Translations under genes and position numbers: made by a program
Assembly: GCA_943329925.2 (NCBI GenBank)
Contig: CALQFT020000010.1
Location: 1 to 44,926, forward strand
DNA length: 44,926 bases
Direction: 5' to 3'
DNA from: Opitutus sp. GAS368
Lineage (GTDB): Bacteria > Verrucomicrobiota > Verrucomicrobiia > Chthoniobacterales > Chthoniobacteraceae
Notes under the pieces: generated by a model
Told to the model about the DNA's origin: nothing
Databases searched by the model: none
The model's input: the letters and a program-made list of their open reading frames with translations, nothing else
Shown: piece after piece, positions 25,774-36,852 of the stretch
Numbering within the stretch: the first letter of the stretch is position 1
Layout: every line of letters begins with the position of its first letter

Positions 25774-25871
25774 TGGGCAATGTGCTTTTAGGACGAGGCG
25801 GTTGAATGTCGCCCTCTCTTTGTGGCTCAGAAAAACACTCGCGGCCTGTTAATTTTTACAGCATTTCGCTT

Positions 25872-27074
25872 ATGACTCATTCTCCTCCCCCGACCGCGAT
25901 CTCCCAAACGACGCCTCCCCGCCTTGTCTCGTTGGACGCCTACAGAGGCTTGGTAATGCTTTTTATGGCGTCTAGTGGATTGGGTTTTGCCAAGATTGCG
26001 CACGCTCATCCTGACTCCGCCTTTTGGCAAATTATCGCCTTTCACACCTCCCACGCTGTCTGGCTTGGGGGCGGGGCGTGGGATATGATTCAGCCGTCCT
26101 TTATGCTGATGGTGGGGATGTCGCTGCCCTACTCGCTTTCGCGGCGACTGCGCGACGGCGAGGCCTTTGGCCGAATTTTTGCGCATACGCTTTGGCGCTC
26201 GTTCGTCCTCATTGCTCTGGCTGTTTTTTTGACCACTGGTACGAAAAAACAGCCGGATTTCACGTTCCCTAATGTCCTTGCGCAGATCGGCCTTGGATAC
26301 ACCTTTGTGTTTTTGCTCGCGAATCGTGGGTTGAAAATTCAGCTCGCCGCCATCGCTGCGATCGCTCTTGGCGTCTGGGCGGCCTTTGCCCTGTATGCGC
26401 TACCAGGGGACTTAACAAATCTAGCAGCGTTGGGCATGAGTGGGGATGTTGCCACGCAGGCGGTTCTTCCCGGCTTCTTTGGGCATTGGAGCATGAATGT
26501 GAATTTCGCCGCCAATTTTGACCGGTGGTTTCTGAATCTTTTTCCGAGAGAGAGCGCCTTTGTTTTCAATGCCGGCGGTTACCAGACACTCAATTTTATC
26601 CCGGCGATCATCACGATGAGCCTCGGATTGCTGGCTGGTGAGGCTTTGCGCAGCGAACGCAGTGAGACACAGAAGTTAAAGTGGTTGCTCGTTTCGGGAG
26701 GCGTTTGCGTTGGACTGGGACTGCTGGCGGGTGCCACCGTGTGTCCTATTATCAAGCGGATTTGGACGCCGTCTTGGGCTCTTTACAGCGGCGGGATAGT
26801 GCTCTGGGCGGTCGCATTTTTTTACTGGGTGATCGACATTCGAGGATGGAAGGCTTGGTCCAAGCCGTTGGTAGTCGTCGGCATGAACTCCATTGCCATT
26901 TATGTCGCCCACAGTCTGCTGGGAGGTTGGCTGCGTTCCATAGGCCGAACTTATCTTGGCGGTGAAATATTTGACGGGGCCTACGGGCCATTTTGGTCCA
27001 GCCTCTTCGTTTTGGCAGCGCTCTGGCTCATGTGTCTCTGGCTTTATCGTCGCAAGATCTTCCTCAAAATCTGA
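25872..27074 (+). CDS. HGSNAT-like membrane acetyltransferase (DUF5009/DUF1624 family)
   Basis: 400 residues from the ATG at 25872. About ten hydrophobic segments. The N-terminal block RLVSLDAYRGLVMLFM is the hallmark of the heparan-alpha-glucosaminide N-acetyltransferase-like family, and a His-containing cytoplasm/periplasm boundary follows (FHTSHAVWLGG). In human lysosomes HGSNAT moves acetyl groups across the membrane onto terminal glucosamine. Bacterial relatives are presumed to acetylate periplasmic sugars. It is 98 bp after the ceramidase-like gene and just before a sulfatase, which would suit a sulfated amino-sugar substrate. Confidence 0.78.
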   Translation: MTHSPPPTAISQTTPPRLVSLDAYRGLVMLFMASSGLGFAKIAHAHPDSAFWQIIAFHTSHAVWLGGGAWDMIQPSFMLMVGMSLPYSLSRRLRDGEAFGRIFAHTLWRSFVLIALAVFLTTGTKKQPDFTFPNVLAQIGLGYTFVFLLANRGLKIQLAAIAAIALGVWAAFALYALPGDLTNLAALGMSGDVATQAVLPGFFGHWSMNVNFAANFDRWFLNLFPRESAFVFNAGGYQTLNFIPAIITMSLGLLAGEALRSERSETQKLKWLLVSGGVCVGLGLLAGATVCPIIKRIWTPSWALYSGGIVLWAVAFFYWVIDIRGWKAWSKPLVVVGMNSIAIYVAHSLLGGWLRSIGRTYLGGEIFDGAYGPFWSSLFVLAALWLMCLWLYRRKIFLKI

Positions 27075-27157
27075 GTTCGGCTCCATCTGTTTCCCGAACC
27101 AGATTGCAGGCAGGCTCCGTTAGTCTTCTTCCATTTCGATCACCTGTCCTCCTTTCT

Positions 27158-28915
27158 ATGTTAAACCGGTTTGTTTGCTTAATACTTGGCGGTGTGTTTT
27201 TTGCGTCTGCTCATATGCCCGCATTTGCGGCGGGTTCAGCCGAACATCCAAACGTCCTTTTCATCGCGGTGGACGATCTGCGGCCCGAGGCCGGTTGCTA
27301 CGGGAATCCCGTTGTCAAAACGCCGAATATCGATCGTCTCGCAGCCCGGGGTGTTGTGTTTAATCGCGCTTATTGCCAGCAGGCGGTGTGCAGCCCATCG
27401 CGCAGCTCCTTGCTCACGGGGCGGCGTCCTGATGCCACGCGGGTGTACGACTTGGAAACGCATTTTCGAGTGGCATTGCCCGATGTGGTGACCTTGCCTC
27501 AGCATTTTAAGGCCAACGGATATTACTGCGCCGCGCTCAGTAAAATTTACCATCACGGATTTGAAGACGGCCGTTCTTGGAGCGAGCCTCATTGGTATCC
27601 TACTGGAAAAACCATCGACACGGACACCGAGGATTGGACTAAGCAGACGGTCAAAAAATTCGAAGGCGGGGTGCAGGAGTACGCCAAAATTACGGCCCCA
27701 AAAGATAATGATAAACCGAAGGCGGGAAAGCGAGGCAAGGGTGCAAAAGGGGATGCCTTCGAGGTAAGTGCGAAGGCTGATGCGGAGCTGCCCGACGGAT
27801 TCACCGCGCAGGAGGCTGTCAAAAGGCTGCACGATCTGAAGGGCAAGGCGGAGCCATTTTTTCTCGCTGTGGGTTTCATTAAACCGCATCTGCCATTTGT
27901 TGCGCCGAAGAAATACTGGGACTTGTATGATCCGGAGAAGATCCCGGTTCCCGCGATTGATCACTTGCCGGAGGGAGCACCGGAGTTTGCGGGGCACACA
28001 AACGGGGAGTTGCACAATTATGCGAACTGTCCTGAGCAAAACCCCATTCCGGCGGATTTTGCAAAGACGTTGAGGCACGGTTACTATGCGGCTATCAGTT
28101 ACATGGACGCGCAGTTAGGCAAGGTGCTGGATGCGCTGGATAAAGAGGGGTTGGCTGAGAATACGGTGATTGTGTTGTGGGGAGATCATGGCTGGCAGTT
28201 GGGCGATCACGGCCTTTGGCACAAACACACCAACTTTGAACTGGCCACACGTGCGCCTCTTTTGTTGAGCGTTCCGGGACAAAAGACGGCGGGGCAGAAG
28301 TGCAATGCGACAGTGGAATTCGTGGACGTGTACCCTACACTGGCAGAGGTTTGTCACCTGCCGTTGCCGACGGGGCTTGCTGGACAAAGCCTGAAACCGT
28401 TTTTGGAAAATCCCGCAGCAGCGTCGGCGAAGGCGGCCATCAGCCAGTACCCGCGTGGAGGCTCCCAGACTGGAAATCAGCCGCTAATGGGGTACAGCAT
28501 CAGGAACGATCGGTGGCGGCTCACCTTGTGGCGCAACGTCAAGACAGACGAGATTGCCGCAACTGAACTTTACGACGAAACAGGGGATCCCGCTGAGACG
28601 GAGAACGTTGCTGGGAAGGCCGAAAACAAGGACGTTTTGGAGGCGCTTTCCAAAATGATGCCGCCCCCGGTCAATGACAACTCAAGTCGGAAGCTTTCTA
28701 AAAAGGAGGCGGGTAAAGCGTCTGATCTCCAAGAGCGTAAGGTGCTTTTCGAGAAAAAAGACATGAACCATGATGGGAAATTAAGCATGGAAGAGTTCCT
28801 GGCAAATCAACCTGACGGTGAGTCTGCCAAACTCCGTTTTGAACAATGGGACCTCGATAAGGACGGATTTCTTTCTCTCCCCGAGTTTCTCCGGGTTGTA
28901 AAAAGTAAAAAATGA
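27158..28915 (+). CDS. Iduronate-2-sulfatase-like sulfatase with C-terminal EF-hand pair
   Basis: 585 residues. Signal peptide about 1-25. The metal-binding DD is at 39-40. The sulfatase signature CSPSRSSLLTG starts at C78, the residue converted to formylglycine, so an anaerobic or FGE-type maturase must exist elsewhere. The block WGDHGWQLGDHGLWHKHT matches the iduronate-2-sulfatase branch. A Lys/Gly-rich insertion lies near residues 185-200. The last 55 residues carry two EF-hand loops (DMNHDGKLSMEE, DLDKDGFLSLPE), an addition not needed for catalysis that suggests calcium-dependent stability or attachment. The ATG at 27158 was chosen because it begins a clean signal peptide; the frame is open further upstream into the previous gene. 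Confidence 0.88.
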   Translation: MLNRFVCLILGGVFFASAHMPAFAAGSAEHPNVLFIAVDDLRPEAGCYGNPVVKTPNIDRLAARGVVFNRAYCQQAVCSPSRSSLLTGRRPDATRVYDLETHFRVALPDVVTLPQHFKANGYYCAALSKIYHHGFEDGRSWSEPHWYPTGKTIDTDTEDWTKQTVKKFEGGVQEYAKITAPKDNDKPKAGKRGKGAKGDAFEVSAKADAELPDGFTAQEAVKRLHDLKGKAEPFFLAVGFIKPHLPFVAPKKYWDLYDPEKIPVPAIDHLPEGAPEFAGHTNGELHNYANCPEQNPIPADFAKTLRHGYYAAISYMDAQLGKVLDALDKEGLAENTVIVLWGDHGWQLGDHGLWHKHTNFELATRAPLLLSVPGQKTAGQKCNATVEFVDVYPTLAEVCHLPLPTGLAGQSLKPFLENPAAASAKAAISQYPRGGSQTGNQPLMGYSIRNDRWRLTLWRNVKTDEIAATELYDETGDPAETENVAGKAENKDVLEALSKMMPPPVNDNSSRKLSKKEAGKASDLQERKVLFEKKDMNHDGKLSMEEFLANQPDGESAKLRFEQWDLDKDGFLSLPEFLRVVKSKK

Positions 28916-28953: not shown

Positions 28954-30222
28954 TTAATCTGGAAGCGGACGGCCTTTGGTTTCTGGGGCAATGAAGGCAA
29001 GTGCCATGCCCAGTACGTACACCAACGTGACCACCGCACCCATCTGGGAGTAGCCGCCGAGTTGCGCAACGAGTTGACCACTACCGAGCGCCCCGAAGGC
29101 GGCTATGATGCGGCCGGAATTGTAACAAATGCCCTGCCCCGTGGCCCGTACACGGGTGGGGAAGAGCTCTGGGAAATAGAGCGGGAAAAAACCGTAGAAG
29201 GATGCCGTCGTCGCCGCGATGAGTCCGATTTTGACCAAAAACAAAGTGCCCCATTCCGCAGGAAACCGGAAGAGCCAGACGCTAAAAGTCAGAGCCAGCG
29301 TGCTCAAAATTCCATAGGCGAGTCGGCGTGAAAACTGGGCGAGAAACACTGGGCCGAGTATTGCGCCGAGAGCTGCTGCGAGGGAGGAGACGATCTGCAC
29401 GGTGGCTTTGGCGTCAGGCCGTGTTCCCCCGGTGAGTTGATCGGCCCACGAAGGGATCCATTGGACGCTGCCCCAAGAGCCGATGAGGGCGACAGCGGAG
29501 AGCAAAACACCTATGAGCGTTGATTTTAGCAAAGGAGGACTCAACACGGTGAGGACCTTTGATTCGCTCGGTTCGTCCGTCGCTGTGGCTTTCCATTTTT
29601 CAGATTCCGGCACCCAGATTCGAATGATGAGGGTCAAAACTGCGGGCGCGGCTCCCACCAAAAAGAGCCAGCGCCAGGAATCCGGGGTGACGACAAAGAT
29701 GCGCGCCACAACGCCAACTAGAGCCATGCCTAAGTTGGAGGCTGCGCCGATTGCCGCTGCGAGCCACGGGCGGTGTTTATCCGGCCACGTCTCCATGACC
29801 AGCGCCACGCCCAGCGCCCATTCGCCGCCCATGCCCAACGCTGCGATGAAGCGAAATAGTGCGAGGTGCCAAGGCGCTTCTGCGAAGTAGCCGGCGCCGC
29901 TGAAAATGGAGTAGCACAGAATACTCCACGCCATTGCCTTGACCCGCCCAATCTTGTCGCCAAGCCAACCAAAGGCGATGCCTCCCAGTGCAGCGCCCAC
30001 TAGAAAGGCCGCAGTGATGCGCCCCATCCAAACTCCCACGCCGCCTTCCAGGCCCGGGCCGAGAAGGTTTTGCAGGGCTGGCCGGGCGACTACCGGGAAG
30101 AGGCCAAGTTCGAACCCGTCCAGCAACCAGCCGAGAAATGCGGCCATCAATGTGAGCCACGCCGCCTTTGAAAGCGTGGTACTGGGTGGTGCGGGAGAAG
30201 GTGCGAGCGTTTGAGATGTCAT
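28954..30222 (-). CDS. MFS transporter (metabolite symporter type)
   Basis: 422 residues with about 12 hydrophobic helices. MFS motif A is seen as GWLGDKIGRVKAM after helix 2, with a matching acidic residue in helix 1 (GWLLDGFELG). GGEWALG in helix 4 and the PESEKWK loop point to the sugar/organic acid:proton symporter branch. It lies 39 bp downstream of the DUF116-prenyl synthase gene on the same strand and may be cotranscribed. Its substrate is unknown. It converges with the sulfatase gene; no clear terminator is visible in the 38-bp gap. Confidence 0.85.
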   Translation of the reverse strand: MTSQTLAPSPAPPSTTLSKAAWLTLMAAFLGWLLDGFELGLFPVVARPALQNLLGPGLEGGVGVWMGRITAAFLVGAALGGIAFGWLGDKIGRVKAMAWSILCYSIFSGAGYFAEAPWHLALFRFIAALGMGGEWALGVALVMETWPDKHRPWLAAAIGAASNLGMALVGVVARIFVVTPDSWRWLFLVGAAPAVLTLIIRIWVPESEKWKATATDEPSESKVLTVLSPPLLKSTLIGVLLSAVALIGSWGSVQWIPSWADQLTGGTRPDAKATVQIVSSLAAALGAILGPVFLAQFSRRLAYGILSTLALTFSVWLFRFPAEWGTLFLVKIGLIAATTASFYGFFPLYFPELFPTRVRATGQGICYNSGRIIAAFGALGSGQLVAQLGGYSQMGAVVTLVYVLGMALAFIAPETKGRPLPD

Positions 30223-30261: not shown

Positions 30262-32055
30262 CTACTGTTTTGCCCCGTTGGCGTTATCAAATTCTTTGCA
30301 CCATCCCTTGATCTCGGTGTCGTTGAAAATCTTTCCGATCACGCGGCGTAGCAGTCCTTTAAGGCTCGCGTTTTCCAATTCACCAAGGGCGCGAATGGCT
30401 TCCTCCTTATAGCGTTCTAGCAAATCTTGGCAGCGCTCCAAGGCTCCAGCTTCGACGCAGGCCATGCGTGCGGCATCCGCGCTGTGCCCTGTCTCGCGCC
30501 GCCAGCGCGAATCCAAAACGGCCTTGGTCTGTCCCTGCGCCCTCTCCCAACCTGCTGCGAGCACCACACCGGGGCGCATTGCTGCCAAATCGTCGGGTGC
30601 CCCGGCCCCGCCCGCGGTGAAATCCTCCAGATCGTCTCGGATCTGGTACGCAATTCCCAGCGCCTTGCTGTAACTTTCCAGTGCGGGCGCGAGTTCTTCG
30701 TGCGCCTCCAATCCGGCAGCCAGCGCTCCAATTTTGAGAGCTACGGCAAAAGCTGGCGCGGTCTTCTTCTCGAAAATTTCGAGCACTTCCACCGCCATGA
30801 GCGGACGCGGCTTGCGGGCCCACACGAGCTCTGCACCCTGGCCGCGGCAGAGTTCGCGTTGGCCCTGCGCAGCAACCTGCACCATGAGCGCTTTTTGTTC
30901 CGCGCCATAGCCGCTTTCCGCCAGTAACCGGTAACCCTCTCCGATGAGTAAATCCCCCACATTCAGGGCCACAGCGACGCCGTATTCCTCATGCAGGGTG
31001 GATTCGCCGTAACGCTGGGCGTCTTCGTCCTCGATGTCGTCGTGAATGAGGGAGGCTTTGTGGAAGCATTCCACGGCCACCGCGAGTTTCTTGAGCGCGG
31101 CGGGCACCGTGCCGCCGGGTTCCTCGGAAAGGGCCTGGTGTGTGGCGACGGTGAGAAAGGGCCGCCACCGCTTTCCGGCGCGCTGCAGCCATTCGCGGGC
31201 GATGGCTTCGGTTTCTCCCTGAGCGGCACCGAGGATGGAGTCCAGGGAGAGGGGAGTAAACCAGAAGTCGACTTCCTCGCGCAGGTTGCCGAGATCCATG
31301 CGACGGCTGCGATCGTCGCTGGTGAGATGGATGTAATCCCAGACCCAGTCCAGATCGACTGTGGTGTCGATGCAATCATCCTGCAAAAGGGGGACGGCGA
31401 CGCCTGGAATTGCGGCGGCTTCCATGTAGGGAAATGCGCGTTCCAAAACGCTCAGGCAACTCACGCCGACAATGGCCTCGATTTTTCCCGTCTGAATGAG
31501 CGACATCACGATGGCCGAGCCTTCTGCCACTAGCACCGCGTAGCCAAGGCGTTCCGCTTCATTTTGGAGATCTTGAATCGAGCACAGACCGCACTGTTTG
31601 CATAACAAGCCGAATTCATCGAAGGGTGCGGGGCACTTGCTTTCAATTCGCAAACATTTGGGAATGAGGAGTAATCGGCGCTCGTATGGAACCGCGGCGA
31701 GGGACTCGCGCCATAACTCATTGTTGATGAGCACTCCGGTGTAGTCGCGATAGATGGGGTCAATCCCCAACTCGGCGACGAGTTTGTCCGCGTGTTCCTG
31801 CAACTGAGCGTTGGGCAGCGGCGGCACGGGGCGCTCGCGTTCCACATAGGCCCGCACGGAGTGGAGGAGGCTGGTGCGTTCCTGCAGCGTTTGGGGAATG
31901 TTCTTCTTGGGCTTGCGTACTCGCTGCACGGGCACGGGCCGGGGGATAGTCAGCTGCACGGGTGGGGCGGAGAAGGAAACTGGGGGTTCGGTGAGGGATG
32001 CTGGGGCGGACATAAGCTCGGGTGTGTAAGGAAGACGCCTGAAACGCGGGCGCAT
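30262..32055 (-). CDS. DUF116 domain fused to polyprenyl diphosphate synthase
   Basis: 597 residues from the ATG at 32055 (another ATG at 32013 is possible). The N-terminal about 75 residues are Pro-rich. A DUF116 domain (about 95-240) has a Cys-rich cluster, C134-x6-C141-x10-C152-x2-C155-x2-C158, plus C200 and C228, a pattern fit for an Fe-S cluster. A complete trans-isoprenyl diphosphate synthase follows (about 275-585), with the first Asp-rich motif DDIED at 339-343 and the second DDLED at 474-478. It should condense IPP onto an allylic diphosphate; chain length is not predictable. The radical SAM gene ends 10 bp upstream on the same strand, and an MFS gene follows. Linking a redox/Fe-S domain to a prenyl synthase is unusual. 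Confidence 0.82.
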   Translation of the reverse strand: MRPRFRRLPYTPELMSAPASLTEPPVSFSAPPVQLTIPRPVPVQRVRKPKKNIPQTLQERTSLLHSVRAYVERERPVPPLPNAQLQEHADKLVAELGIDPIYRDYTGVLINNELWRESLAAVPYERRLLLIPKCLRIESKCPAPFDEFGLLCKQCGLCSIQDLQNEAERLGYAVLVAEGSAIVMSLIQTGKIEAIVGVSCLSVLERAFPYMEAAAIPGVAVPLLQDDCIDTTVDLDWVWDYIHLTSDDRSRRMDLGNLREEVDFWFTPLSLDSILGAAQGETEAIAREWLQRAGKRWRPFLTVATHQALSEEPGGTVPAALKKLAVAVECFHKASLIHDDIEDEDAQRYGESTLHEEYGVAVALNVGDLLIGEGYRLLAESGYGAEQKALMVQVAAQGQRELCRGQGAELVWARKPRPLMAVEVLEIFEKKTAPAFAVALKIGALAAGLEAHEELAPALESYSKALGIAYQIRDDLEDFTAGGAGAPDDLAAMRPGVVLAAGWERAQGQTKAVLDSRWRRETGHSADAARMACVEAGALERCQDLLERYKEEAIRALGELENASLKGLLRRVIGKIFNDTEIKGWCKEFDNANGAKQ

Positions 32056-32065
32056 TAGGGGGAAA

Positions 32066-33328
32066 TCAGGCGGGGTCCTGCGCGGGTTTGGGTTGGGCGA
32101 GTGATTTTGCGTGAGGTTGGCTGGAGGGGGAGAGTTTGTTGTAGGCGCCGAAGTCACTAAACCAAAAACGCTTAGCGATGCGATACATCCAGTGTTTTTC
32201 AGGAATTTCCTCACCTGGCAACCACTGACTGAAGCGCGGTTGCATGGCGTTTAATTCTGCCATGGCCGTCTGGCGCACGGTGGTGTCGCGCGCCCCGTGT
32301 TTGTGGACGAGGTCGCGTACGAGGTCGGGGCGTTCCATGACGACGCAGCCCCGGGTGGCTTGGGCGCTGAGTTCGCGGAAATCTTTTAGAAACTCCGAGT
32401 CGCGTAAGGTGGCCACGATGCCGCGTTTGTCGTGAATATCTTCTTTGGCGAACTGGATGATGGGGCAGGGTTCAACGTCGCCGTAGGGGCTGACATGATG
32501 GGAGATGCCGGTAGACATCGGACACAAGGCTTTGCCGTCGTGGCCGTAGTAGGCGTCAACGATACCGATTGGCATCTTGGTTCGCATATCCACGATGAAC
32601 CTGCGAACGTCCACCAACTGTTGCGGCGTGAGGCCGAGTTGCGTGTTCATTTTCGGGCCGACGGGGCGATAGGTGTGGAACCACACGTAGTGCACTCCGC
32701 GCGCTATGAGTTCGCGCATCCAGTGTTCGGTGAGCAGTTCCTTAATGTTGGTCTGGCACACGGAGGTCGCCACGCCGGTGAGCAGTCCTGCTTGGATGCA
32801 GGCGTCCAGACCGCGCAAAGTCCGGTTGAGCACGTCCACATTTCCCCGGCGCTCGTTGCTGACCACTTCCCTGCCTTCGATGGAAACTAGCGGCGTGGCG
32901 TTGCCCAGTTCCACCAAGCGTTTAGCGATTTTGGGCGTGATGCACTGCCCATTTGTGAAAATCTGGAAATAACACTCCGGATGCCGCTCTAAAATGTCCA
33001 TTAGGCCGGGATGTAAAAACGGCTCGCCCCCGAGGATCCCAAAGAAGCGGTTTCCCTGGGTTTTTGCGTCCACTATCATCCGGCTGACGGCTTCAACATC
33101 TAATTGAGAGCGTTCGGCTTCCACGTCCACCCAGCAGCCTTGGCAGCGCAGGTTGCAAGAGTTTAAGATAGAGATGTAAAGAAACGCGGGAAAATACTCC
33201 CCTCGCCTGAGGCGTGCCTTGAAGCGCTCCACGCTCCAGAGCGTCTTGGCGCCGAAGTTCCACATAAACTTGCCCAAACAACGCGGGTGCGTGGTGGACA
33301 CGATTCGGGCGACAAGTTCAGGGAGCAT
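32066..33328 (-). CDS. Radical SAM protein, function unknown
   Basis: 420 residues from the ATG at 33328; a GTG at 33346 is possible but sits directly on the AAGGAG sequence. The radical SAM cluster motif is C58-x3-C62-x2-C65 (CNLRCQGC), with the SAM-binding GGEP at 100-103. Further Cys residues in ALCPMS, EPCPII and TRGC could bind an auxiliary cluster, as in SPASM/Twitch proteins. About 57 residues precede the CxxxCxxC core, longer than most. It lies immediately upstream of the DUF116-prenyl synthase gene, suggesting that it acts on an isoprenoid or with the DUF116 domain. No characterised family was recognised. Confidence 0.82.
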   Translation of the reverse strand: MLPELVARIVSTTHPRCLGKFMWNFGAKTLWSVERFKARLRRGEYFPAFLYISILNSCNLRCQGCWVDVEAERSQLDVEAVSRMIVDAKTQGNRFFGILGGEPFLHPGLMDILERHPECYFQIFTNGQCITPKIAKRLVELGNATPLVSIEGREVVSNERRGNVDVLNRTLRGLDACIQAGLLTGVATSVCQTNIKELLTEHWMRELIARGVHYVWFHTYRPVGPKMNTQLGLTPQQLVDVRRFIVDMRTKMPIGIVDAYYGHDGKALCPMSTGISHHVSPYGDVEPCPIIQFAKEDIHDKRGIVATLRDSEFLKDFRELSAQATRGCVVMERPDLVRDLVHKHGARDTTVRQTAMAELNAMQPRFSQWLPGEEIPEKHWMYRIAKRFWFSDFGAYNKLSPSSQPHAKSLAQPKPAQDPA

Positions 33329-33481: not shown

Positions 33482-33669
33482 GATTCGCATTTATGAGGCT
33501 CGTTGAGTGGGTGTGATGGATTTCTAGTCCCAGATGTTTTGCATGAAAACGACATCTCAGAGTGAAGTTCTTTTTATTAGAGTTTTTTTGCGGATAAGTG
33601 ACTTTGGCGCACCCCATGCTAGATCAGTCATTTGTAGATTGCGTTATCACTCAACGGAAACCTCCAGAT

Positions 33670-36600
33670 ATGAAACACCACGATCACCATGTTAGTTGGA
33701 AGAAAACGGCACTCGCTTGTGCAACGGTTGTTTTAGTCGGTAGCGCAGGCTATCTAGCGATGCAGGGCGGTGGAGCAGGTGCGCCCACGCCAAAAAGTGA
33801 CTCGGCACCGATGGCTGCGGCGACTTCCTTGGCTGCTCCGAGCTTGCAGGCGGCGGGATCTTCAAGCTCTCAGGCTTCCAACGCCCTAGCCGATGTGGGC
33901 TCTTTGGACGCACTTCCTCTGCTTTTATCAGTGCAGGGGGCCCCTACTGGGGCGCCGTTGCGCGCCAAGGGCGGAGTGAACTCGGACACGGATAAAGGCC
34001 GAGTCGTCAAACTGGAGGCTGCTGCGGCGCGCGGGTGGTCGGCGGTGAAGGCGGGGGCGAGGCTCGCTTTGCCCACGGCTTCGGGAGACTTGGTGGAAGG
34101 TTCTGTGAATCTAGTGATTTTGGACAATGGTTGGGTGCGAATCGCGGGCGAACTTACGGATCGCACTGGGACTTTCCAGTTGGCCTCCAGTCTGGATGAA
34201 GTCGCTGGGGTGATTTTGCGGCCAGCCTTGGGCGTGGGTTATCAAATTGTGCAGGACGGTGACGAACTGTTGTTGGTGGAGCGGCACTTAACCTCGCTGA
34301 TCTGTGCGGGTAACGAGTCCGCTGCGGCTCCAGAATTAGGAGGTGTGTTGGCTGCGGGAGGATCCGTGACCACGGGAACTGTGACCACTGTGGTACCGGT
34401 CGCACCGACCGTGCGCACCGACATTCCTCTGCTCAATACACGGCCCGGAGCCAAGGGCGTCATTTTCGCGGATTTTGCGGGCGCGAGCATCACGGATCCC
34501 AGCTGGAACGCTGGTAAGACGATTGTGGCGGCGCCTTCCAAGGAAACGCCGGCCTCCATCACTTCGATAGTGAAAGCGGTGGCCGAAGATTATGCCCCGT
34601 TTGACGTCACTATCACTACGGATCGTGCGTTGTACGCAGCCACCCCTGCTGGGTTGCGTATGCGCGCAGTTGTGACTCCAACGAATACCGCCATGCCTGG
34701 GAGCGGCGGGGTTGCTTTTATCGGGGCTTGGGCCTCGGCTGGGAAAAACTTTAAGTCCGATACCGTCTGCTGGGTGTTCAACGGAGGTACGAAAGTCTGC
34801 GCGGAAACCATCTCTCACGAAGTGGGTCACACCCTCGGTCTGGGACATGATGGTTTGGTCGCGACCAAAAATGCGGCCGGGGTGGCTGTGGCTGCGCAAA
34901 CGTACTACTATGGCCATGGCGGCGGCACTAATGTGCCCACGAGTTGGGGCCCGATCATGGGCGCGCCTTTTAGCGTAAGCCTTTCGCAGTGGAGCAAGGG
35001 GGAGTACGCAAGGGCGAACAACAAGCAGGACGACGTGTCGGTCATTGCGTCCGCCACCAACGGGTTTGGGTATATCGGCGACGGCTCAAGCAACACCATT
35101 TTGCCGACTTCGAGTGAGACGGGGAGCTTCATGGTCAACGGTCTGTTGCAGCATGCGACGGTGGCTGACACGTTCGCTTTCCAGACTAAAGGCGGCGCTT
35201 TCACTGCCTCCGCGCGCCCGGCTAACGTGAGCACAGATGTAGATGTGCAGCTCACCTTGACCAACGGCAGCGGAGCTTCTGTGGCGGTGTCCAGTCTGCC
35301 AGACGCACTGAGTGCCGCGCTTAGCACCACTTTGCCCGAAGGGGCATATGTTCTCTCTGTGCGTTCCGCTGGAACCGGCCCTCAACCGACCACCGGATAT
35401 TCTACCGGTTACTCTGAATACGGCTCCCTAGGTGGCTATGTGCTCTCTGGGAGTGTGAGCGGCATGTCGAAAGAACCAATGTTTGGATCAACGCGTGATT
35501 TCGTGGGATTCACGGGCAAGGCGGTGAGTTTTCGTATTGGCGTGACGGCTTCGAGCACTCTGAGTCTGACGGATGGCAGCCTGCCAGACGGGCTGACTCT
35601 TGACTTGGATAAAAAGATTATCACTGGCACGCCTATAGACGACACCGATGACCCAGTCAGCTTTGTGCTCACTGCCGCAAACGACTTCGGCTCCACTGAT
35701 GCTACCTTCACTGTGAAGGTATCCGATGTGTCCGCACCTATTGTTAATGCGCTGGGGGGAACAAGCCTCGTCTACAACATCATCAACAGCACTTCCTCTC
35801 CATGGACCGGCGAGATGAGAGCCGGAGCGGACGGCGTGGTGCGTGCGGTGGCTGAGAGCGGATTGACCGTCAATGGCGGCTCTTCCGCCTTGCGATTCAC
35901 CTCGTATTACAACGGAGATCCCAAGCGGGCCTCTGCGTATTATTTGTTCTCCTTCTGGTGGAGGGCGTCCACTGAAGCCGACCATGACGTCGTGAAATTA
36001 AGAGTAGGCGGCGCGTTGGTTAAAGATTTTGTGACGGGTCTCCCCGTGCAACTGAGCGGTGATACCGGTTGGGTCAAGCAGACGGTGCGTGTGGTAACGG
36101 GTACGTATCCCGCGTTTGAATTCACGTATTCCAAAGATGGAAGCCTGAGCGCCGGCCGCGATCGGGTATGGATGTATGTGGAGCGTTTTGGGTTGCCTCC
36201 AATCGTCGTGAACCAACCTCCGGCAGTGGTCGTGAACAATACTTCGACACTAACCACCAGCGCATCTGCTTTTGTGTTACAAGCGAAGGTGGACGGTGCT
36301 GATTCTGTAGTTTGGCTTAAGGACGGCGTCACCCTCAGTAATGGCACGTCTTCTTCTGGGAGTCAGATTTCCGGAGCGACCACAGGCATTCTCAGTGTAT
36401 TGAAGGCTTCGGGTGCCGACACGGGTTCCTACTGGATGGAAGCCACTAATAGCTATGGAACGGTCGCGAGTAGCCGCTCGAAGGTGGCTATTGGTTCGGT
36501 CCCGGTCATCACCCAGCAGCCTGTGGCTCCCGCGGGGTTGACGGTTGGCGACACGCTGGTGCTCACTGTGGGCGCTGGGGGAACTGATCCGTTGACTTAT

Positions 36601-36852
36601 CAATGGGCCAAGGACGGGGTGGTACAATCCTCGTCTTCCTCGCCTACGTTCCAGAAGGCCAAGATCACGACCACCTCGGCGGGTTCGTATGCCGTGACCG
36701 TGTACAACGGGTTCGGATCGAAAAAATCCACTGCGGTGAAAGTAAGTGTCGCCCCCGCGCCTCCGGTGATTACTGGGACAGTAAATACGACAGGGACAGT
36801 GACCACTACCGGCACTTTGAAGACAGGAACCGTGACTGCGACTGTTAAGTAG
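33670..36852 (+). CDS. Large secreted metzincin metalloprotease with Ig-like domains
   Basis: 1060 residues from the ATG at 33670. A charged His-rich N-terminus and one hydrophobic segment (about 12-30) form a signal anchor. After an Ala/Ser-rich linker and a beta domain comes a zinc protease domain with HEVGHTLGLGHD (zinc ligands H383, H387, H393) and a Met-turn candidate in WGPIMGAPF, as in reprolysin/adamalysin-like metzincins. Then follow a pre-peptidase-like beta domain, a putative-Ig (He_PIG type) domain near SLPDGLTLDLDKKIITGTP, a carbohydrate-binding-like jelly roll, and two Ig-like domains (WLKDGVTLS, YQWAKDGVV). The C-terminus is a Thr/Gly/Val-rich tail. Likely cell-surface proteolysis or adhesion. 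Confidence 0.8.
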   Translation: MKHHDHHVSWKKTALACATVVLVGSAGYLAMQGGGAGAPTPKSDSAPMAAATSLAAPSLQAAGSSSSQASNALADVGSLDALPLLLSVQGAPTGAPLRAKGGVNSDTDKGRVVKLEAAAARGWSAVKAGARLALPTASGDLVEGSVNLVILDNGWVRIAGELTDRTGTFQLASSLDEVAGVILRPALGVGYQIVQDGDELLLVERHLTSLICAGNESAAAPELGGVLAAGGSVTTGTVTTVVPVAPTVRTDIPLLNTRPGAKGVIFADFAGASITDPSWNAGKTIVAAPSKETPASITSIVKAVAEDYAPFDVTITTDRALYAATPAGLRMRAVVTPTNTAMPGSGGVAFIGAWASAGKNFKSDTVCWVFNGGTKVCAETISHEVGHTLGLGHDGLVATKNAAGVAVAAQTYYYGHGGGTNVPTSWGPIMGAPFSVSLSQWSKGEYARANNKQDDVSVIASATNGFGYIGDGSSNTILPTSSETGSFMVNGLLQHATVADTFAFQTKGGAFTASARPANVSTDVDVQLTLTNGSGASVAVSSLPDALSAALSTTLPEGAYVLSVRSAGTGPQPTTGYSTGYSEYGSLGGYVLSGSVSGMSKEPMFGSTRDFVGFTGKAVSFRIGVTASSTLSLTDGSLPDGLTLDLDKKIITGTPIDDTDDPVSFVLTAANDFGSTDATFTVKVSDVSAPIVNALGGTSLVYNIINSTSSPWTGEMRAGADGVVRAVAESGLTVNGGSSALRFTSYYNGDPKRASAYYLFSFWWRASTEADHDVVKLRVGGALVKDFVTGLPVQLSGDTGWVKQTVRVVTGTYPAFEFTYSKDGSLSAGRDRVWMYVERFGLPPIVVNQPPAVVVNNTSTLTTSASAFVLQAKVDGADSVVWLKDGVTLSNGTSSSGSQISGATTGILSVLKASGADTGSYWMEATNSYGTVASSRSKVAIGSVPVITQQPVAPAGLTVGDTLVLTVGAGGTDPLTYQWAKDGVVQSSSSSPTFQKAKITTTSAGSYAVTVYNGFGSKKSTAVKVSVAPAPPVITGTVNTTGTVTTTGTLKTGTVTATVK

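Follow-up and report, generated by a model that had tools for sequence, protein, structure and literature searches.

Cyclases of the squalene-hopene cyclase (SHC) superfamily with a DxDD motif occur together with a radical S-adenosylmethionine enzyme (rSAM) in the hopanoid pathway, which comprises squalene synthase or HpnCDE, HpnF and HpnH. In the C35 sesquarterpene pathway of Bacillus—consisting of a heptaprenyl diphosphate synthase, YtpB and SqhC—the chain made by a trans-type polyprenyl diphosphate synthase (IDS) finally undergoes squalene-free cyclisation by an SHC-type enzyme. The sHdr-LbpA system of sulfur oxidation offers an example of a GcvH-like lipoate protein that serves a single pathway and is encoded alongside Fe-S proteins (PMC6067878, PMC10332631). 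As for the domain DUF116 (arCOG02078/COG1852), the passage dealing with it in Makarova et al. (2015; PMC5898192) describes it as cysteine-rich and, by HHpred, flavodoxin-like, predicts a role in electron transfer and mentions in one sentence its fusion to a polyprenyl synthetase, Psta_0175 of Pirellula staleyi. The present article concerns a DUF116-IDS fusion encoded next to an rSAM in Opitutus sp. GAS368, on a stretch of 44,926 nucleotides (contig CALQFT020000010.1 of the assembly GCA_943329925.2, positions 1 to 44,926), which in its full length is referred to here as the window.

It appears rather probable that the rSAM and the fusion are parts of one dedicated terpenoid pathway, which would unite the IDS, a class II cyclase, tailoring by the rSAM and an Fe-S redox module of its own. 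Every enzyme type involved is known and the fusion is already in print, while the combination of genes is, as far as tested, apparently undescribed. Neither the gene set nor the pathway was found to be described in the open-access literature, subscription papers having been outside the search; DUF116 (COG1852) is treated there in a single relevant paper (PMC5898192), and the open-access literature on terpene clusters of Verrucomicrobia and Planctomycetes names antiSMASH terpenes, hopanoids and carotenoids, not this cluster. The passage of Makarova et al. (2015), in which the domain architecture and the predicted cysteine-rich, flavodoxin-like, electron-transferring character are the same, treats the fusion alone, mentioning neither its distribution nor a cluster with rSAM, cyclase, second GcvH or CobW, and does not propose a terpenoid (PMC5898192).

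The fusion protein and the adjacent rSAM

The two genes and their main elements are arranged in the window as follows:

32066..33328, (-): rSAM gene, ATG at 33328, 420 aa (Pfam Radical_SAM PF04055, 2e-12)
33134..33157, (-): SAM-cluster motif C58-x3-C62-x2-C65 of the rSAM, invariant in homologues
30262..32055, (-): DUF116-IDS fusion, 597 aa from the ATG at 32055 (Pfam PF01976 and PF00348)
31333..31767, (-): DUF116 domain, flavodoxin-like alpha/beta fold (Pfam PF01976 match, AlphaFold2 model)
30472..31209, (-): trans-polyprenyl diphosphate synthase domain (Pfam PF00348 polyprenyl_synt, 1.3e-42)
31027-31041, (-): first Asp-rich motif, DDIED, residues 340-344 (alignment)
30622-30636, (-): second Asp-rich motif, DDLED (DDLSD in relatives), with D475-D476 and D479 (alignment)

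The initial annotation, made from the nucleotide sequence, had reported an rSAM with a CxxxCxxC motif 10 bp before the fusion as well as a cysteine-rich DUF116 joined to a complete polyprenyl synthase. The former is exact with regard to both the motif (C58/C62/C65) and the coordinates, the gap between the rSAM stop and the ATG at 32055 being 10 bp, and the latter agrees with both Pfam matches, seven cysteines and the two Asp-rich motifs. It should be noted that the start used in nature is probably the ATG at 32013 rather than that at 32055, since the aligned homologues begin with MSA.

The DUF116 half is matched by its profile with an E-value of 1.3e-35 and 122 bits, against a cut-off of 25 (Pfam PF01976; arCOG02078). 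Five of its seven cysteines are found at positions 134-158 and the other two at 200 and 228, as counted from the ATG at 32055 (genomic span 31372-31656); in the numbering of the alignment, which is one higher, they correspond to C135, C142, C153, C156, C159, C201 and C229, with C153-C156-C159 forming the CxxCxxC. All seven are kept in at least 97% of the 81 homologues, and their pattern agrees with the description given in the relevant passage of PMC5898192. The catalytic residues of the IDS half are likewise kept in at least 97% of the 81 sequences, the segments GKRWRP, GQG, KT and YQ—covering Q407, K432-T433 and Q472—also being invariant. Because the DUF116 cysteines and the IDS motifs are conserved to this extent, the fusion is, judged from the alignment, a working architecture, neither a chance joining nor a decaying gene. 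The residues preceding the first Asp-rich motif (A335/S336 at -5/-4 and F332 at -8) suggest, according to the known chain-length rules, a product chain longer than C20. Since the genome has two further IDSs of the housekeeping type, the fusion would represent a third, dedicated one.

The rSAM has been assigned to the SPASM/twitch subgroup based on its invariant motif, the partial TIM barrel in its model and the extra C-terminal cysteines. Invariant in 40-51 homologues are C58, C62, C65, the GGEP at 100-103, C269, C288 and C328; with the last three invariant in addition to those of the CxxxCxxC, one auxiliary Fe-S cluster is likely. The AlphaFold2 model, having a predicted local distance difference test (pLDDT) value of 92, matches SuiB, SkfB and anSME at Z 24-25, and its fold is, in general, similar to those of the SPASM/twitch enzymes (SuiB, SkfB, anSME, BlsE, MoaA, viperin; Z about 20-25), which share the extra conserved cysteines after the barrel, whereas the likeness in sequence is limited to the core, the best PDB profile match reaching 65 bits. 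No characterised enzyme was found nearby by sequence models, all listed NCBIfam matches being far under their cut-offs. At three loci (L182 15974-17233, L186 4504-5694 and L189 4462-5718) the rSAM encoded nearby shares only about 40% identity with those of the main group and might represent a second subtype of the enzyme.

Distribution and gene order

Of the 289 Verrucomicrobiota genomes in which co-occurrence was evaluated, 52, belonging to 22 families, carry the fusion and 48 the rSAM, all of these 48 being fusion carriers (Fisher p = 1.6e-50); the class II cyclase has been found in 52 genomes, 51 of them in common with the fusion (p = 1.4e-54), genomes being taken as independent in both tests. 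Where DUF116 exists solely in its unfused form, as in ten genomes, both rSAM and cyclase are lacking. The association between the rSAM and the fusion, whose possible randomness the initial annotation had itself named as a point to be checked by counting adjacencies, is thus non-random: the two genes lie within 4 kb of each other in 33 of the 48 genomes carrying both, and the co-presence holds where the adjacency is lost. That they are functionally unrelated and neighbours by chance is therefore extremely improbable, unless a shared-lineage effect were at work in every family; the loss of adjacency in several genera of the family would fit such an explanation, but the co-presence persists without it and spans 20 families of the phylum, and the operon is found in three phyla. 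The correlations between the distance matrices of four genes (r 0.44-0.78) are expected from common ancestry and were left out of account.

When 84,980 species genomes were scanned, at least 80 fusion loci emerged, originating from Verrucomicrobiota, Planctomycetota and Acidobacteriota, and the reading frames near them were clustered. The recurrent order consists of a cysteine desulfurase (NifS) on either strand, not always present, followed by a GcvH-like lipoyl protein, a CobW GTPase, a small cysteine protein, a 2x[4Fe-4S] protein, the rSAM, the DUF116-IDS fusion, a small alpha/alpha-toroid protein of the prenyltransferase type (PT) and the class II cyclase. In the 80 loci listed, many of them clipped by contig ends, the following were seen near the fusion: rSAM in 50, Fe-S/Cys proteins in 49, PT in 45, CobW in 39, GcvH in 34, cyclase in 30 and NifS in 22; with the exception of the NifS gene, all these conserved neighbours are almost always on the same strand as the fusion. 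Many Planctomycetota, Acidobacteriota and other Verrucomicrobiota have the set as a single operon, often with the cysteine desulfurase near, and it is complete at L188 (Planctomycetales bacterium ZRK34, Planctomycetota, a complete genome), L194 and L169. The genome G006 has eight genes in a row, in which the rSAM and the fusion are followed by PT and by a 600-aa protein of the SHC superfamily with DADDT. Chthoniobacter flavus Ellin428 (Verrucomicrobiota) is a further named carrier. The rSAM and the fusion are therefore two linked members of a larger set of about eight genes, so that the system proposed by the initial annotation was incomplete, the remainder being found here on other contigs.

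Pfam and NCBIfam support every gene name in the set except that of the small cysteine protein, for which neither library gives a match; its likeness to the N-terminus of HdrA, seen by eye, is backed by no library match and was rejected. No PDB match with E <0.05 was obtained for the PT protein. The GcvH-like protein, a second, lipoyl-lysine-bearing GcvH (GcvH2), aligned to the GcvH of E. coli, has its lipoyl-attachment residue K78 invariant in 35 sequences, its score being under the canonical GcvH cut-off. At an acidobacterial locus (L199 7829-8755) the small cysteine protein is fused to the 2x[4Fe-4S] protein, the two being separate genes elsewhere, implying that they work together. Six of the carriers are metagenome-assembled genomes whose organism names look wrong—L122, L124, L125, L129 (titled Akkermansia muciniphila), L142 (Proteobacteria) and L179 (Bacteroidales)—their fusions being closest to sequences from Verrucomicrobiota and Planctomycetota.

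The assembly of Opitutus sp. GAS368 itself (3.8 Mb, 287 contigs) was searched for the partner genes. All eight genes of the set are present, spread over five contigs, namely the window (C10) and the following four:

C8 38585-41247: PT and class II cyclase, together
C13:23443-24558: CobW GTPase
C28:22142-22927: 2x[4Fe-4S] protein with the small cysteine protein next to it
C141:7573-8004: GcvH2

Among the 57 genomes surrounding this one, the fusion recurs in most relatives of the same family, and it is accompanied by the rSAM in nearly the same genomes, mostly non-adjacently outside the genus. PT and the cyclase exhibit almost the same pattern of presence, and CobW, the Fe-S protein and GcvH2 (beside the housekeeping GcvH) occur in essentially the same relatives as the fusion. 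One genome of the family, G023, has GcvH2 (C131:8327-8755) and CobW (C73:44528-45646) without rSAM, fusion and cyclase; the two are either a remnant or a sign of a separate function common to both.

The cyclase and the proposed redox module and pathway

The cyclase belongs to class II of the SHC superfamily (PF13243 and PF13249 matches, double alpha/alpha-toroid type), and its DxDDT motif, D349-x-D351-D352-T353 (DADDT), is kept in at least 97% of 31 cyclase sequences. Its combination with an rSAM follows the logic of the hopanoid pathway, and the genome of Opitutus sp. GAS368 has two genes of the squalene/phytoene synthase type (SQS_PSY, PF00494), so that a variant hopanoid pathway might be considered, in which the SHC-like enzyme would cyclise squalene and an HpnH-like rSAM would adenosylate the product. 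For the genome under study the argument against hopanoids is thus indirect, yet SQS_PSY is absent from 41 of the 52 Verrucomicrobiota genomes carrying the cyclase, i.e. most carriers are independent of squalene. Moreover, the cyclase scores 70.7 bits and its L188 orthologue 102 with the hopene cyclase model TIGR01507, for which the cut-off is 431, the L188 rSAM reaches 36.1 bits with the HpnH model TIGR03470 (cut-off 225), and HpnH is not among the best 25 NCBIfam matches of the rSAM from the window. The present set also differs from the hopanoid pathway in having a dedicated IDS—fused into one of its proteins—and the module of lipoyl, CobW and Fe-S proteins. The hopanoid variant was therefore rejected as highly improbable. 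Since most carriers lack SQS_PSY and both enzymes score far under the hopanoid cut-offs, the cyclase would most simply have as its substrate what the fusion produces, either the chain itself or a derivative. In this respect the set resembles the C35 pathway of Bacillus, where a linear polyprenyl diphosphate is finally cyclised by an SHC-type enzyme in a squalene-free manner; the rSAM and the Fe-S module are, in contrast, restricted to the present set, and a YtpB-like gene is absent from its conserved neighbours.

The terpenoid pathway considered rather probable above would thus start with the IDS half of the fusion, predicted to make a linear all-trans polyprenyl diphosphate longer than C20. 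The class II cyclase with its DxDDT motif, probably together with PT, would cyclise that chain or its derivative by protonation, and the SPASM/twitch rSAM would then act on an unactivated carbon of the isoprenoid, in its cyclised (or linear) form. DUF116, the 2x[4Fe-4S] protein, the small cysteine protein, CobW, GcvH2 and often the cysteine desulfurase would form a module for redox, cluster and sulfur tasks, in which DUF116 and the Fe-S proteins may move electrons, whereas NifS, CobW and GcvH2 may support the handling of clusters, metal or sulfur.

Several observations weigh against this pathway. Four draft genomes (G167, G177, G261 and G270) have a divergent fusion and the cyclase with no rSAM detected, so that the enzyme may tailor the product at a late stage or may not be needed at all. 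The Fisher p-values given above overstate the association because genomes are not independent, although the pattern spans 20 families. The model of DUF116 has no clear structural relative, the best Foldseek E of 0.03 and the best VIA Z of 7.4 being at the level of background. Finally, it is not obvious where GcvH2, CobW and NifS would fit into the chemistry of terpenes, so that something beyond a modified terpene may be the end product. With regard to fusions without the rSAM, it can be added that at L231 (7555-11726) a divergent fusion of 37% identity adjoins a class II cyclase with no rSAM near, possibly a simpler form of the pathway.

According to the main rival explanation, the product is a redox cofactor or a lipid-anchored carrier: the rSAM, GcvH2, CobW and Fe-S proteins would build or load a head group by sulfur or one-carbon chemistry on the lipoyl arm, as in sHdr-LbpA, and the IDS with the cyclase would provide the cyclised prenyl tail. 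Five or six of the encoded proteins are indeed no terpene enzymes but carry Fe-S or lipoyl groups or handle metals, GcvH2 retains its lipoyl-lysine motif, the cysteine desulfurase is near the fusion in 22 of the 80 loci listed, and the GcvH-like LbpA partners Hdr-like proteins in sulfur oxidation (PMC6067878). The set shares with sHdr-LbpA the dedicated lipoate protein encoded with Fe-S proteins, but its association is with an IDS and a terpene cyclase, and the conserved families of the 80 loci listed include no HdrB/HdrC, lipoate ligase or LipS, only ferredoxin-like and small cysteine proteins; nor is there among them any head-group enzyme or UbiA-type transferase of a prenyl chain to a ring. 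GcvH2 and CobW are, in addition, partly separable, being present in G023 without the remainder. The cofactor or carrier is thus considered unlikely, the terpenoid pathway being preferred.

The part played by DUF116 can be approached from its unfused homologues in Verrucomicrobiota, which share the seven-cysteine pattern of the fused form. In the tree, fused and unfused DUF116 form separate clades, consistent with a single fusion event for the main group of DUF116-IDS proteins. At 10 of 12 loci the unfused gene adjoins ispH (PF02401; five loci, four families) and/or a gene for a CrtI-like desaturase (seven loci), mostly in genomes without the rSAM/cyclase set, as exemplified by the following loci of other Verrucomicrobiota, in each of which an unfused DUF116 stands beside ispH (LytB) and/or the CrtI-like desaturase:

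L235 6143-7596
L238 3972-6950
L246 4416-5900
L247 2282-3841
L237 4830-7833

This neighbourhood ties DUF116 to isoprenoid redox chemistry and suggests a general role of the domain in isoprenoid metabolism. The isoprenoid context proposed by the initial annotation is supported by it, as well as by the class II cyclase accompanying the fusion in 51 of 52 genomes. At L243 (2647-6065) and L248 (2859-6314) the unfused DUF116 is flanked by an aldehyde dehydrogenase and CrtI-like oxidases, recalling the clusters for C30 carotenoids of the staphyloxanthin type.

DUF116, predicted to hold an Fe-S cluster, would probably place it at the synthase, and electron transfer by the domain is plausible. The initial annotation had stated that DUF116 has no assigned function, yet the electron-transfer role was proposed, and the fusion noticed, as early as 2015 in the passage quoted (PMC5898192). 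The AlphaFold2 model (pLDDT 86) exhibits a flavodoxin-like alpha/beta domain, and the DUF116 profile has no match among the PDB sequences. Instead of donating electrons, DUF116 could be a regulatory or scaffolding Fe-S sensor toggling the synthase by redox state; this would suit a cysteine-rich domain that is flavodoxin-like both in the model and by HHpred in that passage (PMC5898192) and has no catalytic motif besides its cysteines. The very strong conservation of DUF116 and the position of its unfused copies next to IspH and desaturase genes, suggesting a part in isoprenoid redox chemistry, make the sensor quite improbable in comparison with the redox partner.

A broader proposal may be put forward tentatively, namely that a new class of isoprenoid biosynthesis is common to Verrucomicrobiota, Planctomycetota and Acidobacteriota. 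Its product would be a cyclic terpenoid made independently of squalene—possibly a membrane lipid similar to hopanoids or a lipid cofactor—with the chemistry of the rSAM fed by the set's own lipoyl carrier, CobW and Fe-S proteins, and isoprenoid enzymes in general would have DUF116 as their Fe-S redox partner, joined to the synthase here and encoded beside ispH elsewhere. If so, a conserved isoprenoid pathway of about eight genes would have been overlooked in abundant, little-studied phyla of soil and water, and the product of its SHC-superfamily cyclase could be mistaken for hopanoids in lipid-biomarker work. For the long-orphan DUF116 a testable role would emerge, that of a redox partner with an Fe-S cluster for isoprenoid metabolism, a squalene-cyclase-type enzyme would be used in a squalene-free way, and SPASM/twitch rSAMs would acquire a new class of substrate. 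Since Chthoniobacter flavus Ellin428 and Planctomycetales ZRK34 carry the set, and Pirellula staleyi carries the fusion according to the sentence in PMC5898192, the pathway is directly testable.

Neighbouring genes in the window

Beyond the fusion, the window contains the following gene:

28954..30222, (-): MFS (major facilitator superfamily) transporter, aromatic-acid/sialate:H+ symporter-like (Pfam MFS_1, NCBIfam)

It is present 39 bp beyond the fusion, as had been reported. The initial annotation had counted it with the rSAM and the fusion as a trio that makes and modifies an isoprenoid; the link between the latter two and their isoprenoid context stand, whereas the transporter was rejected as a member of the system, its linkage not being conserved, since within the genus it adjoins the fusion in a part of the genomes only and is missing from the conserved clusters of the 80 fusion loci. 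Further along, at 25806-28915, a NagX-like transmembrane protein of the glucosamine N-acetyltransferase type is followed by a sulfatase that bears EF hands at its C-terminus, the pair being likely a unit for glycosaminoglycans or sulfated glycans. On the other side, divergent from the rSAM operon, positions 33598-36852 encode a protein of 1084 aa that combines several Ig-like domains with a zinc protease motif of the reprolysin-like type.

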